Assembly: GCA_002796125.1 (NCBI GenBank)
Contig: PCWA01000084.1
Coordinates: 88,045 to 138,234, forward strand
DNA: 50,190 nucleotides
Source: Candidatus Ghiorseimicrobium undicola
GTDB lineage: Bacteria; Omnitrophota; Gorgyraeia; Ghiorseimicrobiales; Ghiorseimicrobiaceae
Direction: 5' to 3'
This document shows positions 6,519 to 48,875 of the stretch, one piece after another. Under the pieces are notes generated by a model. The model saw only the letters and a program-made list of their open reading frames with translations, was not told where the DNA came from and did not search any database. Position numbers and translations under genes: made by a program. Numbering within the stretch: position 1 is the stretch's first letter; every line of letters begins with the position of its first letter.

Positions 6519-7683
6519 ATATATCTTCTATTTCCGCGTCCTGATAATAAAATTTGAGTATCGTGTAATATTTATAGCCGTCTTTTGCCATGAAATAAGC
6601 GCCCCACTGGCACATCCCTACTCCGTGGCCCCATCCAAAACCGGAAAAGAACGCTTTACCCGCCATAACGTCAAGGCTAAACTTCAGGCTGCGGATTATT
6701 TTGGGGTCCAGCATCTGGCGAAACTCCTTGCCGGAGATAATCTTTTGCCCCTCATCTGATATTAACTCAAGCGCTTTCACCCGCCCTGAATCATTCAACT
6801 TCAAAACGCGCATATCCTTTAATGGCCCTATATTATATCCTGAAAGGTTTAGTTTTTCCACAATTTCCGCAAGCGTAAGCGTCACATCCCATTTAATATG
6901 CAAAGAGGCGCCGCAATAAGGGCAATCCACGCTTTTAAGGCAGCCTAAATTTATATTCCAAAGCTCATCGGCATTTTCCGTCCTGCCGGCGCAGGTGGCG
7001 TGAAAATAAGCCGGAAAAATTTTTCCTTTATATTTCAAAACTAAACCGCGGGTCAGCTCCACAGCTTTATTAGTCCGGTATCTTTCAGAATCTTTGCCTC
7101 CATAAACCTGCGAATAGATATCGCTGCTTACATCATAAGGCTTGGCCTTATTCATTTGCGCATGATAAAGCGCATAAGTCCTTGTAGCGATGGCCTGCGC
7201 TTTAATGGCTTCTATCGGCCAACGGTGGGAAATTTCATGAAAAAGAACGCCCTTAACATAATCTTCCAACCCGATATAGTTTATTGCCGATAATTTTTCC
7301 GAGGCTGCTTCTTTTCTGATTATTAAATCACCTCTCAACGAACGGTTATTAACGTAAAAATATCCCGAGGCAGGGTGGATAAGCAGCGCTTTCTTTTTAA
7401 AACTCTCGCGCAGGTTTATGCCGGAAGCAGACGCGGATACCTTAACGCTTAAAGAATTTCCGCTGGATAAAAGCTTATTATTTTCCAGCGAGCGTATTTC
7501 GTATTTGCCTTTGATAAAAAGTTTAAAGCTTGCCGTATCTTTCATTATAAGGACGCGTATGCGGGAATTATCTTTAGCGTGGGTAAAAGGAAGAAAAAAT
7601 AGAAAGGATAAAACTGATAAAAGTATAATCCGTCTAATCTGTGGTTTAAATCCGTGCAATCTATGCTTTACCGGCGCGGCCAT
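6505..7683 (-). CDS. SpoIID/LytB-domain secreted protein
   Basis: Exported protein of the SpoIID/LytB family, which includes the peptidoglycan lytic transglycosylase SpoIID and amidase enhancers. The N-terminus is a signal peptide with core ILLSVLSFLFFLPFTHA. Family blocks are YRGDLIIRKEA-like, YVKGVLFHEISHRWPIEAIKAQAIATRTYAL and GFGWGHGVGMCQWGAYFMA near the end. A C-x2-C pair (DCPYCG) lies in the middle. I chose the ATG at 7683 over a TTG at 7689. The n-region of the signal peptide is encoded by a short quasi-repeat (see findings). The family is widespread in non-sporulating bacteria, so a wall-remodelling role is more likely than sporulation. It overlaps queA and DUF2905. Confidence 0.88.
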   Translation of the reverse strand: MAAPVKHRLHGFKPQIRRIILLSVLSFLFFLPFTHAKDNSRIRVLIMKDTASFKLFIKGKYEIRSLENNKLLSSGNSLSVKVSASASGINLRESFKKKALLIHPASGYFYVNNRSLRGDLIIRKEAASEKLSAINYIGLEDYVKGVLFHEISHRWPIEAIKAQAIATRTYALYHAQMNKAKPYDVSSDIYSQVYGGKDSERYRTNKAVELTRGLVLKYKGKIFPAYFHATCAGRTENADELWNINLGCLKSVDCPYCGASLHIKWDVTLTLAEIVEKLNLSGYNIGPLKDMRVLKLNDSGRVKALELISDEGQKIISGKEFRQMLDPKIIRSLKFSLDVMAGKAFFSGFGWGHGVGMCQWGAYFMAKDGYKYYTILKFYYQDAEIEDIYEAR

Positions 7684-11967: not shown

Positions 11968-12951
11968 TTAAATTCCCATTACTCGCTTTACTTCCTTTAA
12001 CGTGCCGGATGTAACTTCCTCTGCTTTAATCTTTCCTTTATCTATTATATCCGAAATTTGCTTTTTGTCAGATATTAATTTATTTCTTTTTTCCTGTATG
12101 GGCCTAAGATGTTCTGTTAATATTTCAGAAAGTTTTGCCTTGCATTCCGTGCATCCGATTTGAGCGAATTTACACTTCTCTTTTATTTCCTCAACCAGTT
12201 CCGGTTTAAATACGGCATAATAACTATGCACATTACATTTTTCAGGATGGCCCGGGTCAGTGCGCTTGATACGCTTGGGGTCAGTTATCATAGACATCAC
12301 TTTTTTATGCAGGATATCCCTGGAATCGGAAAGATAAATACAATTATCATAGCTCTTGCTCATTTTTCTTAAATCAAGCCCGAGCAATCTGGGGAAAGCC
12401 GTCAAAAGCGGCTGGGGGTCAATTAAAATATCCTCTTTGTATAGGCTATTAAAACGCCTGGCTATTTCACGGGTCAATTCAAGGTGGGGAAGCTGGTCTT
12501 CTCCTATGGGCACATACTCTGCCTTATATGCTAAGATATCCGCCGCCTGAAGCACGGGATAGCCTAAAAACGCGTATGTAGAAATATCCTTATTTTTTAA
12601 CTCTTTAATCTGCTCTTTGTAAGTGGGGCATCTTTCTAACCAGCCAAGCGGAGTAAGAGCGGATAAAATCATAAATAAATCCAAATGCTCCTTAACATCA
12701 GACTGTATAAATATCGTGGCCTTATCCGGAGAGATACCGCAGGCAATCCAGTCTATTATGTTATCAAAGGCATTTTCTTTTATTATGGAAGGATTGGCGT
12801 ATTCGCTCATCAGAGCGTGCCAGTCGGCAACCATAAAAAAACACTCATACTCATCCTGTAACCTCGCCCAGTTATTTAAGGCGCCTACTAAGTGCCCTAA
12901 ATGCAGCCTGCCTGTAGGGCGCATACCGCTAAGAATACGTCTTTTATTCAT
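11968..12951 (-). CDS. trpS: Tryptophan-tRNA ligase
   Basis: Class I aminoacyl-tRNA synthetase. The 327 residues are normal. The HIGH-type motif is GRLHLGHLVGAL near residue 14 and the KMSKS loop is DLRKMSKSYDN. The GEDQLPHLELTREIARRFN block is also conserved. The start has no ribosome binding site in the bases just upstream, which belong to an AT-rich quasi-repeat filling the gap to infB. It is followed 12 bases later by scpA. Confidence 0.97.
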   Translation of the reverse strand: MNKRRILSGMRPTGRLHLGHLVGALNNWARLQDEYECFFMVADWHALMSEYANPSIIKENAFDNIIDWIACGISPDKATIFIQSDVKEHLDLFMILSALTPLGWLERCPTYKEQIKELKNKDISTYAFLGYPVLQAADILAYKAEYVPIGEDQLPHLELTREIARRFNSLYKEDILIDPQPLLTAFPRLLGLDLRKMSKSYDNCIYLSDSRDILHKKVMSMITDPKRIKRTDPGHPEKCNVHSYYAVFKPELVEEIKEKCKFAQIGCTECKAKLSEILTEHLRPIQEKRNKLISDKKQISDIIDKGKIKAEEVTSGTLKEVKRVMGI

Positions 12952-15276: not shown

Positions 15277-16464
15277 TTATTTTCCTATAAGCTTTTTCGC
15301 TTCTTTTATGATCTTCTCGGCTGTTTTTTTACCTATGCCGTCAACCTTGGTCAATTCTTCTGCCGTTGTTTTAGCGATAGCATCTACATCTGTGAAGCCG
15401 GCTTTCTTAAGGTTTTTGGCTGTTTTTTCTCCTATCCCGGAAAGCTCTGTTATCTCTACTTTTTCTGCCTCTTTGACCTCGGCTTTAACCTCAGGCTTTG
15501 CCTGCTGTGCCGCTTTTTCAACAAGCATTGCCTTAGTGCGTATATCTATGCTATATCCTGTAAGACGGGACGCCAGCCTTACATTTTGCCCGCGCTTTCC
15601 TATAGCAAGCGAGAGCTGATCATCATCAACCACAACCTCAACGGCCTTATTTACTTTATCAATCTTCATCTGAGCTATCTTTGCCGGGCTTAAGGCGCCG
15701 GTTATATACTCTCTCGGCTCTTCATTAAAGCGCACGATATCTATCTTTTCATTATGCAGCTCATTGACGATATTTTTTACCCGCGCGCCTCTCATTCCGA
15801 CACAGGCGCCCACGCAATCTACTTTTTCATCTTTAGACCAAACCGCTATTTTAGTCCTCTCTCCGGCATCGCGGGCGATAGACTTTATCTCAACAATCCC
15901 TTCGTATATTTCAGGAATCTCCAGTTCAAAGAGTTTTTTGACAAAATTCGGATGCGCCCGGGATAAAATAATCTGCGGGCCGCGAGGTTCTTTTTTAACC
16001 TCTAAAACATATGCTTTAAGACGGTCCCCTTGCTTAAATTCCTCATTCGGGCACTGTTCGCTCCTGGGCAAAAATCCCTCCGCCCTGCCTAAAAGATCAA
16101 CCACCATATTGCCCCTTTCAAAACGATAGACAGAACCACTTACGATATCCCCCAATTTACTCTGAAAATCCTGGAAAACAACTTCCTTTTCTGCCTCGCG
16201 TATCTTTTGTATTATAACCTGCTTGGCTGTTTGGGCTGCAATCCTTCCAAAATCAATAGAATCAACTTTTTTCCCGTCTAAAAATACGCTGATTTCACCG
16301 TTTGCCTTATCCAATTTCACTATGATTTCCTGCTCCGGACCGACTTTAATCACTTTTTTCGCCGCCGATACCAAAGCCGCCTCAACCGCCGCGATTAATA
16401 TATCCTTGTTAATACCTTTTTCACGCTCCATATATTCCAAAACCGACAATATTTCCTGATTCAC
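15277..16464 (-). CDS. nusA: Transcription termination/antitermination factor NusA
   Basis: RNA polymerase-binding factor affecting pausing, termination and antitermination. The 395 residues contain the N-terminal polymerase-binding domain, an S1 domain (GDIVSGSVYRFERGNMVVDLLGRAEGFLP) and two KH domains (VGACVGMRGARVKNIVNEL and LAIGKRGQNVRLASRLTG). A C-terminal tail of two helix-hairpin-helix motifs (ELSGIGEKTAKNL and KVDGIGKKTAEKI) replaces the acidic repeats of E. coli NusA. The start is GTG with an AAGGAAG site upstream. It lies between rimP and infB. Confidence 0.97.
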   Translation of the reverse strand: MNQEILSVLEYMEREKGINKDILIAAVEAALVSAAKKVIKVGPEQEIIVKLDKANGEISVFLDGKKVDSIDFGRIAAQTAKQVIIQKIREAEKEVVFQDFQSKLGDIVSGSVYRFERGNMVVDLLGRAEGFLPRSEQCPNEEFKQGDRLKAYVLEVKKEPRGPQIILSRAHPNFVKKLFELEIPEIYEGIVEIKSIARDAGERTKIAVWSKDEKVDCVGACVGMRGARVKNIVNELHNEKIDIVRFNEEPREYITGALSPAKIAQMKIDKVNKAVEVVVDDDQLSLAIGKRGQNVRLASRLTGYSIDIRTKAMLVEKAAQQAKPEVKAEVKEAEKVEITELSGIGEKTAKNLKKAGFTDVDAIAKTTAEELTKVDGIGKKTAEKIIKEAKKLIGK

Positions 16465-25043: not shown

Positions 25044-25317
25044 TTTAATGAGCACATAACTTACGGAGGCGAAGCCGACGTAAGTTATAAGTGCGAATTA
25101 ATCTCCTCGCTTAAGCAAGGAGTAAATTCTCTTCGAGAATTTACCCCTTAAGCTTCGGAGTAGGTTAGAACTTATTAAGCTTGAACCTACCCGCAGCCTG
25201 CCCACAGGGGCGGACCATCCTAACACCTTTTAAGGATGAGCCCTATCGGATAAATATCGGAGAGATTTACCCGATGTTTAGGCAAGGGATACCCTAACGT
25301 CTAATGAGCCCACAACT
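25044..25317 (-). repeat. Modular palindromic repeat, composite copy B
   Basis: Fills the whole 274-base gap. Module 1 (25047-25103) is almost identical to copy A. Module 2 has CTCCTCGCTTAAGCA from 25104, an inner stem TAAATTCTC-TTC-GAGAATTTA (25123-25143) and GCTTAAG/CTTAAGC as outer pairing. Further hairpins are GTAGGTT/AACCTAC (25160-25190), CCGC...GCGG with CCTG-CCCA-CAGG near 25191-25213 and CATCCT/AGGATG near 25216-25238. Module 3 follows (CGGATAAAT/ATTTACCCG, about 25247-25274). A partial module 1 end (AATGAGCCCACAACTT) abuts the OmpA-type gene. Confidence 0.8.
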
Positions 25318-43936: not shown

Positions 43937-46900
43937 TTAAACCAAAGCCTTTTTAAGCTGGCGCTCCTTTATCCAGCAATACAGTACGGGAACCAGTATC
44001 AAATTAGAAAGTGTCGCGGTTATAAGTCCGCCCACGGTGGGGGAAGCCATAGGCTTCATTATCTCAGAACCGGTTCCGCTTGATAACATAACCGGCATAA
44101 GCGCGATAATCGTTGTCATGGTCGTCATCATCGCCGGCCTTACCTTCAAAAGACATGCCTCAATGATTGTTGAACGAATTTGTTCTATTGTTTTCGGATC
44201 TTGCTTTTTGAATAAATCATTTATTTTTGATATTACTAATATGGCATCATCTGTGGCTACGCCGAAAATAGCAATAAATCCTACCCAGACAGCAGTGGAA
44301 AATCTGAATCCTAAAATAAATAGAAGTATAATCCCACCCATTAAAGAAACAGGAATTCCTGTGGATATTATAAAAAGGGAACTAAAATCTTTAAACGCCA
44401 TATAAAGTAATATCAAAATTATGCTCAACGCAATGATTAATGACGGGATGAGGCGCCTGCGCGATTCCATCTCCGACTCAAACTGCCCGGACCAGCTGAT
44501 AAAATACCCGGAAGGAAGTTTTAATTCTCCGCTTTTTATCTTAGCATTAACCGCCGCCTTGGCGTTATTGACAAAATCTATTAATCCGACCTTTTCCTGA
44601 TTAACATTAACGAATACCCGGGCGTAGGTAATTGTATTCTCTGAATTAATCACCGCGGGGCCGGGAACTTTTTTTAAGCTTGCCAGTTGCGCAAGCGGTA
44701 TATGTTCTCCGCCAGGCGTAGGAACAAATATACGCTCAAGCGCCTGAGGACTATCGCGTAATTCACGCAAATAACGTATCCTGACAGGATATCTTTCCCT
44801 GCCTTCTACGGTAGTCGTCAAATTCATACCGCCGATAGCAGTCATGATAATATGCTGGATCTCGCCTATTTTTACGCCGTATCTGGCAGCCTGCTCCCTA
44901 TCAATCTCTATCTCAAAATAGGGCCGCTCGGATGTGCGCTCAGCAAACGGGCTCACCGCTCCTTCCACATCGCGCACAATCCTCTCGACGCTTACGCCTA
45001 TATCGACTATTTTTTCCAAATCATCGCCAAATACCTTAACGCCAACGGGTGTCTGAATACCCGTAGCCAACATATCAATTCTATTTCTTATTGGCTGAGT
45101 CATAATGGGGCTTACCCCGGGCATCATGGTTTTATCCTGTATCTCCCGGATAAGCTTATCGCGGCTCATGCTGCGCCTCCAGAATTTCTTATCCTTTAGA
45201 TGAATAATGGTTTCAATCATTATTACAGGTGCTGGGTCTGTAGCGGTCTCCGCCCTTCCTAACTTCCCCACAACCCATTCTACTTCAGGAATTTCATTCT
45301 TTATAATAATATCCTGCTTTTTCATCACATCCATTACTTGCGTAAGGGATGCCCCCGGAAGCAAAACAGGCATAAATAAAAGATCGCCCTCATTTAAGGG
45401 CGGCATAAATTCTTGTTTCATAATTGCGCCTAAGAATAAACCCACTATTACTATCGCCGCTGAGATTAAAAATATAACTTTTTTGTTTTGCAGTGACCAC
45501 AAAAGCATAGGTTTATATTTAGAATGCAGAAGGCGTGCTGTTTTATTTTCTTCAACCGGTGTTAATCTGCCTCGTAAAAGATAATAACATAAAACAGGTA
45601 AAAGCGTTAAAGCAATAACTGCCGCCCCGAACATAGCAAATGTCTTGGTAAAAGCCAGGGGGCGAAAAAGCCTGCCTGCTTGTCCGGTTAATACAAAGAC
45701 AGGCAAAAAACCTATAATTGTGGTAAGTACGGCAAAAAGGACAGGCCTTCCTACCTCAGCGGCTCCCTCAATACAAACATCTAACCTATCCGAATTAGAA
45801 AGCTTATCTGTATTTTTTTCCTTTCTTGCCTCAACGAGTTTCCTGTATATATTTTCAACTAAGACACATCCTGAGTCAACCATAACGCCTACGGCTATGG
45901 CAATACCGCCTAAAGACATGATATTCGCATCTATCCCAAATTGATACATTAAGATAAAAGCGATTAACACCCCTATGGGCAAAACACATGATATAATAAG
46001 GCTTCCCGCAAAATGCAGAAGAAAAATAACTATAACAAATATAGTAATAATGATTTCCTGGATAAGGGCATTTTTTAATGTGCCTATGGCGCGCATGATT
46101 AACCCCGTCCTGTCATAAAAAGAAACAATGCGCACACCATGCGGCAAGCCAACCGATAATTCCTCTATGCGTTTTTTTATCCGCTCGATAACTTTTAAGG
46201 GGTTCTCTCCGTAACGCATAAGTACAACACCGCCTGTCGCTTCAACACCCTCCCTATCTAAAGCATTTCTTCTAAATTCAGGCCCCAGGCTAACTGTGCT
46301 GAGGTTCTTGACATATACCGGCACATCACCTTGAACATTCACCACTATATTCTCTATATCAGAAACTGTTTTTATAAAACCTACGCCGCGTACAACAAAC
46401 TCAGCCCCGCCTTCCTCAAAAACCTTAGCCCCAACATCGATATTGGATTTTTCAACGGCAGCTATAAGCTGATGCAACTTAATGTCATAAACAAGAAGCT
46501 TATTCGGGTCTACGTCTATCTGATACTGTTTTACATAGCCTCCTACAGATGCCACTTCAGAAACGCCCTCTACCGCGTTTAATTGATACCTTACATACCA
46601 GTCCTGAATTGAACGAAGCTCGGATAAATCATAAGCAGAAGCTATTAAATCTTCTCCGTCTTGCGGGCATTTACCGGTCTTAGCAAAACGTTCCTGCGGA
46701 TGATTAGGGCAATAATATCCATTCTCAACCGTATACCAGAATATTTGGCCAAGCGCTGTTGCGTCAGGGCCCAATATAACAATAGCATTATTCGGCAGGC
46801 CTTTCTTTGCAAAATCCAATCTTTCTAAAACACGTGTTCTTGCCCAGTAAAAATCTGTCCCTTCCTGGAAAATCATATTCACCAGGCCAAAACCGAAAGC

Positions 46901-47158
46901 GCTTGTGGAACGCACTACCTTTACTTTAGGCACGCCCATAAGGCCCGTGGTTAAAGGATAAATAACCTGGTCCTCAACATCTTTAGGGCTTCTTCCCGGC
47001 CAATCAGCATAAACTAAAATCTGGAGTTCGCCGATATCCGGGATGGCATCAATAGGCGTATTTCTCATAGAATGCCAACCCCAGAAAATAATTAAGGCAA
47101 AGACGGCAATAACTAAAAAGCGGTTTTTAAGGCAGGTTTCGATTATTGATTTAATCAT
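43937..47158 (-). CDS. cusA: CusA/CzcA heavy-metal efflux RND transporter
   Basis: Inner-membrane proton antiporter of the heavy-metal RND family, 1073 residues with 12 transmembrane helices in two RND repeats. LGGIAIAVGVMVDSGCVLVENIYRKL carries the helix-4 proton-relay Asp; the CusA-type form rather than the CzcA DGAVV form points to Cu(I)/Ag(I). PHGVRIVSFYDRTGLI and GVATDDAILV are also typical. A 30-residue insertion (147-176) contains CPNHP and CPQDG, like a heavy-metal-binding domain. The start codon has no ribosome binding site because repeat copy C lies just upstream. Confidence 0.93.
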   Translation of the reverse strand: MIKSIIETCLKNRFLVIAVFALIIFWGWHSMRNTPIDAIPDIGELQILVYADWPGRSPKDVEDQVIYPLTTGLMGVPKVKVVRSTSAFGFGLVNMIFQEGTDFYWARTRVLERLDFAKKGLPNNAIVILGPDATALGQIFWYTVENGYYCPNHPQERFAKTGKCPQDGEDLIASAYDLSELRSIQDWYVRYQLNAVEGVSEVASVGGYVKQYQIDVDPNKLLVYDIKLHQLIAAVEKSNIDVGAKVFEEGGAEFVVRGVGFIKTVSDIENIVVNVQGDVPVYVKNLSTVSLGPEFRRNALDREGVEATGGVVLMRYGENPLKVIERIKKRIEELSVGLPHGVRIVSFYDRTGLIMRAIGTLKNALIQEIIITIFVIVIFLLHFAGSLIISCVLPIGVLIAFILMYQFGIDANIMSLGGIAIAVGVMVDSGCVLVENIYRKLVEARKEKNTDKLSNSDRLDVCIEGAAEVGRPVLFAVLTTIIGFLPVFVLTGQAGRLFRPLAFTKTFAMFGAAVIALTLLPVLCYYLLRGRLTPVEENKTARLLHSKYKPMLLWSLQNKKVIFLISAAIVIVGLFLGAIMKQEFMPPLNEGDLLFMPVLLPGASLTQVMDVMKKQDIIIKNEIPEVEWVVGKLGRAETATDPAPVIMIETIIHLKDKKFWRRSMSRDKLIREIQDKTMMPGVSPIMTQPIRNRIDMLATGIQTPVGVKVFGDDLEKIVDIGVSVERIVRDVEGAVSPFAERTSERPYFEIEIDREQAARYGVKIGEIQHIIMTAIGGMNLTTTVEGRERYPVRIRYLRELRDSPQALERIFVPTPGGEHIPLAQLASLKKVPGPAVINSENTITYARVFVNVNQEKVGLIDFVNNAKAAVNAKIKSGELKLPSGYFISWSGQFESEMESRRRLIPSLIIALSIILILLYMAFKDFSSLFIISTGIPVSLMGGIILLFILGFRFSTAVWVGFIAIFGVATDDAILVISKINDLFKKQDPKTIEQIRSTIIEACLLKVRPAMMTTMTTIIALMPVMLSSGTGSEIMKPMASPTVGGLITATLSNLILVPVLYCWIKERQLKKALV

Positions 47159-47163
47159 CTAAT

Positions 47164-47272
47164 GAGCACATAACTTATTGAGCACGAAGTGCGACATAAG
47201 TTATAAGTGCGAATTATCCCGAAGCCTATCGGGTAAATATCGAAGAGATTTACCCGATGTTTAGGCAAGGGG
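47164..47272 (-). repeat. Modular palindromic repeat, copy C (cusA leader)
   Basis: Module 1: ATAACTTAT (47170-47178) pairs with ATAAGTTAT (47196-47204), with an inner GCAC-GAA-GTGC hairpin (47182-47192), unlike the GGC-GAA-GCC of copies A and B. Then AAGTGCGAATTATCCC and module 3: CCCGAAGCCTATCGGG and a perfect 9-bp CGGGTAAAT/ATTTACCCG stem (47230-47255), then ATGTTTAGGCAAGGGG. On the minus strand a GGGAGGATAAATAAATG lies just outside it (47273-47289). Confidence 0.85.
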
Positions 47273-47289
47273 CATTTATTTATCCTCCC
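47273..47289 (-). promoter_or_regulatory. Orphan ribosome binding site and start codon upstream of cusA
   Basis: GGGAGGA (47283-47289) is seven bases from an ATG (47273-47275) that opens only ATG CCC CTT GCC TAA. The cusA ATG is 115 bases further on, past repeat copy C, and has no site of its own. The best reading is a former cusA ribosome binding site separated from its gene by the repeat. Confidence 0.6.
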
Positions 47290-47334: not shown

Positions 47335-48816
47335 TTAATGCTGATGCCCAGCAGGCATAGACGGCTTATCTTCTTGTCCTTGAACCCCTAATGCTCCGCC
47401 GTAACTAGATGCAGCTATCCCCGATATCTGGCTTTGTGAATCAATTAAGAAATTTGCTTTTGTCACAACCTGCTCGCCATAAGCTAAACCTTTTAGCACC
47501 GGATAAAATGTACGCGGCTGGCCGTCAACTAAAGACGTTGCCTCAAGGCCCACATTAATAACCCTGCCTTCGTAATTTCCTCCGCCTTCATCGATCCAGA
47601 CAACCTTACGCTTACCGGTATCTAAAAGCGCTTCCTTAGGAATAACCAAGGCTTCTTCTTCGCCATTTGTACCTTGGTAGGCACTGCGTATTAATACATC
47701 AACATACATCTCGGGTTTTAATTTTAAGCCTATATTATCAACCTGAGCGCGAAAACGTATAGTGCGCTTCTTAGGGTCTACTACAGGATTGACTGAAACA
47801 ACCGTTCCTTTAAATTCTCCTTCAGGATAACCTCCTGCCGTAACTAAAACTTCAGCGCCTGTCCTTACCCAACTTAGCTCATACTCATAGACATCTGCGT
47901 AAATCCACATCTTTTCTTCGGGTAATATTAAACTACTCTGAATATTGCCTTCCTGCTCTAATTTTCTAATCTGCGCCTCATTCATGCCTAAAAGTTTTAA
48001 TTTTCTTTCCGAAGACTCTAATAAACCCTGCATACGCTCTTTTGTTTCTTCTATCAAACTGCCTTCCATTTTTTTATGTGATTTAAAGGCGGAAAGGTAT
48101 TCCTCCTGCGCGATAACCAAATCCGGATCATAAGCAACTTTGCCTACCGCGCGTATTTCTTTAAATAACTTCCTTTTAATAACGGGCTGAACCCGAACCC
48201 CCGCTAATTCCAACTGCTCTTTATCTATTTTTACGCGCGAAACCACACCTTTTATTTTATCTACTTCCTCTTTGCTGAGTTTCCTTAGGGGCCCGCCGCA
48301 TATCGGGCAATTCTCTTTTACGCCTTGTATTGTAAATATATGCTCGGCACATACACACTCTTCGCCGGCCTCCATGCCGCAAGAAGGACAAGTCCCATCA
48401 AGCATACCACAGCCGTAATATGCTTCTTCCTCTTGTTGGGACTGCTCATATACCGGCAGATAATCCATGCCCATAGAATCCTTCATGGGCACCTCTGAAG
48501 TTATGGATGGATCCATTGGATTACGATAGAAAAGAATTTTCTTCTTGCTGTCTTTTTTACCGGAATCCTTCATTTGCCGCTTAGTTTCTTCTTTATAGAC
48601 GGGAATAAGCGCCATATTACATATCGGGCACATCCCCGGCTTATCAGATTTTACCTCCGGATGCATCCCGCAGGTATAATACAAAATTTGTTCGTCATCC
48701 TTGGTTCTTTGTTGTTCGTTGTTGCCCTTTCCGCTTATCTTCGGGATAACAAAAATAATAAATGCGGTAATAATTATTAGAATCCCGGTTATTATAATAA
48801 TTTTTTTATTTTTCAT
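47335..48816 (-). CDS. cusB: CusB-type RND periplasmic adaptor with three metal-binding segments
   Basis: Membrane fusion protein joining CusA to TolC, 493 residues with an N-terminal anchor (5-26). YTCGMHPEVKSDKPGMCPICNM (48-68) is a heavy-metal-binding domain. YRNPMDPSITSEVPMKDSMGMDYLPVYE (97-124) is the methionine-rich CusB metal site. Residues 134-173 add C136, C143, C146, C154, C156, C170 and C173 as a ribbon-like cluster. The barrel-sandwich and beta-barrel domains follow (VRTGAEVLVTAGGYPEGEFKGTVVSVNPVVD). It ends GHQH. I take the ATG at 48816 with GAGGTG upstream; an ATG at 48840 lies in repeat copy E. Confidence 0.93.
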   Translation of the reverse strand: MKNKKIIIITGILIIITAFIIFVIPKISGKGNNEQQRTKDDEQILYYTCGMHPEVKSDKPGMCPICNMALIPVYKEETKRQMKDSGKKDSKKKILFYRNPMDPSITSEVPMKDSMGMDYLPVYEQSQQEEEAYYGCGMLDGTCPSCGMEAGEECVCAEHIFTIQGVKENCPICGGPLRKLSKEEVDKIKGVVSRVKIDKEQLELAGVRVQPVIKRKLFKEIRAVGKVAYDPDLVIAQEEYLSAFKSHKKMEGSLIEETKERMQGLLESSERKLKLLGMNEAQIRKLEQEGNIQSSLILPEEKMWIYADVYEYELSWVRTGAEVLVTAGGYPEGEFKGTVVSVNPVVDPKKRTIRFRAQVDNIGLKLKPEMYVDVLIRSAYQGTNGEEEALVIPKEALLDTGKRKVVWIDEGGGNYEGRVINVGLEATSLVDGQPRTFYPVLKGLAYGEQVVTKANFLIDSQSQISGIAASSYGGALGVQGQEDKPSMPAGHQH

Positions 48817-48832
48817 CTTAGACACCTCAAAT

Positions 48833-48868
48833 GAGCACATCCGCCGCGGGCGGATAAGCGCGAATTAA
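48833..48868 (-). repeat. Modular palindromic repeat, copy E (cusB leader)
   Basis: GAGCAC, then the perfect stem ATCCGCC-GCG-GGCGGAT (48839-48855), then AAGCGCGAATTAA. The flanks match module 1 of copies A-C while the stem has a wholly different but fully paired sequence. It fills most of the gap between tolC and the cusB leader. Confidence 0.75.
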
Positions 48869-48875
48869 ACCCAAG

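Follow-up and report, generated by a model that had tools for sequence, protein, structure and literature searches.

The cusB-cusA junction in the window (the whole stretch of 50,190 nucleotides analysed) raises the question of how cusA is translated. A Shine-Dalgarno (SD)-like GGGAGG lies upstream of a two-hairpin palindromic repeat, and the cusA start codon lies beyond the repeat. The features of the junction are as follows.

48828..48870, minus strand: short HpB-type hairpin (24.9 bits) before cusB, followed by the SD GAGGTG
47335..48816, minus strand: cusB (RND periplasmic adaptor), starting at 48816 behind GAGGTG and ending with TAA at 47337-47335 (ORF list and hairpin/SD context)
47284..47289, minus strand: GGGAGG, SD-like, 5′ of the repeat (from sequence)
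47261..47275, minus strand: four-codon ORF ATG CCC CTT GCC TAA; ATG at 47275-47273, where other copies of the repeat have their 5′ consensus AATAT
47218..47271, minus strand: HpA, first hairpin, CCCTTGCC...GGCTTCGGG; 34 HpA copies in the retrieved loci of the same genome
47159..47219, minus strand: HpB, second hairpin, TAATTC-stem-loop-CTCATTA; 65.7 bits with model R1, covarying stem
47156..47158, minus strand: cusA start codon ATG; N-terminus conserved in orthologs, in-frame TAG just before
43937..47158, minus strand: cusA, RND efflux pump, 1073 aa, intact; G002 ortholog 83% identical

On the minus strand the order is GGGAGG, mini-ORF ATG, two-hairpin repeat and cusA ATG, and the gap from the cusB stop to the cusA start is 176 nt. 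A single base (G) separates the 3′ base of HpB from the cusA ATG, and sequence inspection revealed no SD between the hairpin and this ATG. The first-pass annotation had described GGGAGG followed by a four-codon ORF (Met-Pro-Leu-Ala-stop), with an SD-less cusA ATG 115 bases beyond the mini-ORF ATG; the letters, coordinates and distance all agreed with the sequence. cusA is indeed intact and reads through from a conserved start at 47158. An in-frame TAG abuts its ATG, and there is therefore no in-frame start further upstream. The N-terminus is conserved in the five closest orthologs of the genome set and in further Omnitrophota orthologs. Position 47158 is thus the cusA start, and an alternative start was ruled out by this conservation. 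A second small ORF (ATG TGC TCA TTA GAT GAT TAA; window positions 47171-47151, minus strand) lies in the HpB 3′ arm and runs across the cusA start; other HpB copies do not preserve its frame.

The junction carries one copy of a palindromic intercistronic repeat that is spread across Omnitrophota, the phylum to which this uncultured bacterium belongs. A 221-bp region matched 72 places in its own genome, where a covariance model built from 22 copies with the start codon left out revealed 63 distinct HpB copies after removal of reverse-strand self-hits. HpB was found in 27 of 39 relative genomes and in 89 of 145 genomes sampled across Omnitrophota. Copy counts derive from genome searches and retrieved stretches. 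The element is 56-61 nt long, with an interrupted stem of 19 pairs over 59 positions and with TAATTC and CTCATTA/TCATTGA as its ends in the alignment; compared as possible MITE-type terminal inverted repeats, AATATCCC and CATTA show no evident complementarity. In the 22 own-genome copies, 97.3% of stem cells were paired, with 34 double changes and one G-U. The corresponding values for 91 copies from relatives, in an alignment fitted to the HpB model and hence favouring structure, were 97.8% paired and 350 double changes (92 in shuffles); slid controls dropped to 21-41% paired. G-U cells accounted for only ~1.6% of this stem alignment. Such a low G-U content suggests that the palindrome could be maintained at the DNA level, and we do not take the covariation as proof of RNA function. 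Rfam 15 gave no gathering match in the window (the best hit close to the repeat had E=0.37 and a score of 13.7, the cut-off being 124 bits), and a known Rfam family was rejected as the identity of the repeat because no curated covariance model matched. A literature search for Omnitrophota palindromic repeats, partial in coverage, found no description of the HpB repeat.

Head-to-head HpB pairs, joined by a CCGCC/GGCGG stem and BIME-like, are frequent in relatives; at L166 (G002; 12530-12666, 15599-15736 and 6707-6837) HpB has an inverted partner in this orientation (GATAAGTTC...CCTCACTTA). Five loci of the own genome (L070, L072, L073, L078 and L082) carry longer repeats in which additional hairpins totalling 100-150 bp (TAGGTTC...CCTACTCCGAAGCTTAAGG) stand between HpA and HpB. 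Reverse-facing copies end in CATTTA and coincide with the stop codon of an adjacent gene; at L007 (G000:C45:2581-2639) the element provides the TGA stop.

Two further HpB copies in the window are likewise flush with a start codon.

25045..25103, minus strand: copy of HpB, flush with the start codon (ATG) of an ORF of 130 aa
18275..18333, minus strand: HpB copy flush with the proS ATG (MRWSEAFISTLKEAPE)

Across the genome, a start codon lies 1-3 nt after CATT in 39 of the 63 HpB copies, as compared with ~1.4% of random positions. The spacing is 2 nt in 25 copies, 3 nt in 13 and 1 nt in 1. Genes behind HpB (downstream ORFs were named from N-terminal sequences, and ORF edges were set by length, not expression) include ilvB, pth, pheT, smc, rpmB, rplV, rpsJ, rplF and proS, and also radA, parA, aroB, adk, tpiA, hisG, priA and cusA. 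Nine more copies have an SD immediately after the hairpin and a start 9-13 nt on; the other 15 are array modules or point away from a gene. The 48 gene-facing copies all come after the end of a same-strand ORF, which lies within 300 nt in nearly every case; shorter ORFs among these may in some cases be spurious. In a few copies (e.g., C67:46621) the upstream gene has its stop codon within the 5′ arm, so that a single HpB spans the entire intergenic gap. In this genome, the last hairpin of the repeat fills the gap from stop to start and ends 1-3 nt short of the start.

An SD within 20 nt was present in 1 of the 39 hairpin-flush genes vs. 16 of 21 ribosomal-operon genes without a hairpin, the latter scored by an SD-like match of at least 4 bases. 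The 16S-like 3′ end contains the anti-SD CCTCC. rplC, rplW, rplB, secY and map (5 of the 21) have neither hairpin nor SD, indicating that SD-less initiation exists here independently of the hairpin. cusA is one of ~39 hairpin-flush genes, and its missing SD is usual for the class rather than a sign of damage.

In relatives of the same family, 11 HpB copies are flush to an ATG and 16 have an SD (16/16). In other Omnitrophota families, 7 are flush to an ATG and 29 have a start 4-18 nt on, with an SD in 25 of the 29. Because copies in relatives end flush at either an SD or an AUG, the hairpin evidently marks the 5′ edge of the initiation region, and the own genome shows an extreme, mostly SD-less form of this arrangement. 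G000 and G002 share the hairpin-ATG arrangement at rpsJ, rplV and rplF, and their stem sequences there differ. Hairpins occur at rplV in four genomes, at rplF in four and at rpsJ in three (P ~5e-5 for uniform placement over 28 junctions, a value that ignores gap-length differences and contig ends and uses junctions assigned by eye). The rplF junction of the repeat-free relative G001 reads TGATAGATG, without an SD; the rplV junctions of G001 and G003, both repeat-free there, show GGAG within the upstream gene. Upstream of rpsJ and rplC in G003 (L167), a different repeat (GGTATCTGGTTACTGTAATCTGGTTTCTC.CGAGTG..AACGAGGGGAAATG) occupies the same two junctions, its own SD included.

The first-pass annotation proposed that the repeat was inserted between a working GGGAGG and the cusA ATG, and that the hairpins hold the SD near the AUG or are bypassed by ribosomes. 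GGGAGG does stand at SD spacing from an ATG, AAAGGA is found at a similar place in rplV, and HpA and HpB are both predicted to fold. However, among 16 repeat-free Omnitrophota cusA orthologs (at least 68% identical), 10 also lack an SD near the start, including that of the closest relative (TAAGTC-ATG), which is the outcome that the first-pass annotation had itself named as counting against insertion; most repeat-free orthologs start 3-13 nt past the cusB stop. An uninterrupted GGGAGGATAAATA-ATG-ATTAAA, which insertion predicts in relatives, was present in 0 of 39 genomes, weak evidence in that none of these is closer than another genus. An SD of at least 5 bases upstream of HpA was found in 2 of 34 copies, not enriched over a background of 8%. 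Bridging from an upstream SD is thus not general, and an SD stranded upstream of the array was rejected as a general rule. No target-site duplication was seen in 17 simple copies (mean shared flank k-mer 3.65 vs. 3.56 shuffled), and a MITE-type duplication was rejected for the repeat. The 5′ consensus before the HpA CCC is AATAT, with AATGT in the adk and L066 copies. AATGC in the cusA copy fits as a variant of AATAT; the mini-ORF ATG, which agrees with the repeat's consensus, therefore need not be an old cusA start. We consider the insertion reading quite improbable. What survives of it is a dispersed repeat before a start without an SD, missing from the repeat-free relatives examined; the splitting of an SD from its start is not supported. 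cusA probably makes no use of the upstream GGGAGG. This motif lies 8 nt before an ATG, is well suited as an SD and may have remained from a start specific to G000.

The sequence comparisons favour another reading, in which translation of cusA probably begins at the hairpin-adjacent AUG, through SD-independent initiation or through reinitiation, as one case of a genome-wide arrangement. Without SD pairing, the ribosome would begin at the AUG immediately 3′ of the folded HpB, either through direct SD-independent 30S binding or through reinitiation after cusB. The hairpin would be a compact and self-contained spacer that borders the initiation region on its 5′ side. Stable hairpins contacting a start codon are expected to impede initiation. 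By folding, predicted AUG accessibility was 0.34 with the hairpin, 0.31 without it and 0.42 at other genes. The first value is no better than the other two, so that no benefit of the hairpin was shown; improved AUG access was set aside as a role, folding having given no clear effect.

Other explanations of the flush placement have to be weighed against this one. If an RNase cut the hairpin at its base, the product would be a leaderless or nearly leaderless mRNA beginning at the AUG, and the 1-3 nt spacing would be the cut site. Such cleavage fits the rigid spacing and absent SD in 39 copies, and a strong stem that terminates at the start, but many copies of the same hairpin precede an SD, and we regard it as unlikely. 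We are similarly doubtful of a reading in which HpB, as a dispersed RNA element, is itself what allows SD-independent initiation at the flush codon, whether it recruits 30S or is processed to give a leaderless end; the lineage would then have transferred dozens of core genes, those for ribosomal proteins among them, to this element.

The strongest rival addresses the reason for the hairpin's presence and does not conflict with what our preferred explanation says about translation. Mobile or recombining intergenic repeats may survive in tight operons only when placed exactly between stop and start; they would have no role, and the genes would use pre-existing weak SD-less starts. The same-strand ORF ends within ~300 nt before gene-facing copies are consistent with such passive packing, as are the tight, SD-less junctions of repeat-free cusA and rplF and the low G-U content of the stem, which suggests upkeep of the palindrome at the DNA level. 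However, flush copies are also found in longer gaps, copies in other families are flush with an SD, and hairpins recur at rplV, rplF and rpsJ across genomes (P ~5e-5 under uniform placement, as above). We consider passive packing a real possibility, although not the one that we favour.

SD-independent initiation beside the hairpin, the preferred reading, has a wider bearing. Dozens of genes, including those for S10, L22, L6 and L28, begin flush with a hairpin and without an SD while many other genes retain one; SD-independent initiation is thus directly testable at a defined repeated structure. The repeat family is phylum-wide and absent from Rfam.

HEARO-type ATGA targeting was considered and rejected: the base after ATG is not always A, Rfam gave no match and a literature search found nothing. 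REP/BIME sequences with GTAG tags and RAYT transposases (PMC2817692, PMC3733652) are similar to HpB in that they are short covarying palindromes, extragenic, present in tens to hundreds of copies, and arranged in mosaic arrays and with inverted partners. HpB differs from them in that it is without a GTAG end, has a longer stem (19 bp, 56-61 nt) and is flush with start codons or SDs. A GTAG (or GT[A/G]G) head was not found at either HpB end in the alignment, and none of the five Y1_Tnp genes (PF01797; L049-L053) of the own genome has an HpB within 1.5 kb. Lacking both the GTAG head and an HpB-flanked tyrosine transposase gene, HpB was not assigned to the GTAG REP/RAYT group. CGTC-tagged repeats (PMC3733652) are also palindromes without a dedicated transposase alongside, and share a CNTC tract adjoining ATT at one end; they have 8-9 bp stems, 4-5 nt loops, a CGTC-type head and a CCA tail. 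HpB, by contrast, has no CCA tail, and its interrupted 19-pair stem over 59 positions falls outside the published definition (PMC3733652); membership was rejected. T4 gene 60 bypassing (PMC5009743) resembles the cusA case in that a structured RNA lies close to a break in expression. There, two segments of a single reading frame are linked, with take-off and landing codons as well as a nascent peptide (PMC5009743), whereas there is no interruption inside cusA; the gene is intact from a conserved start with an in-frame stop just before the ATG, and translational bypassing was rejected. SD-independent initiation in Bacteroidetes (PMC6847099) is similar in that starts lack an SD despite a retained anti-SD. 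Here, however, other genes use SDs, and the SD-less starts are concentrated at the hairpin repeat.
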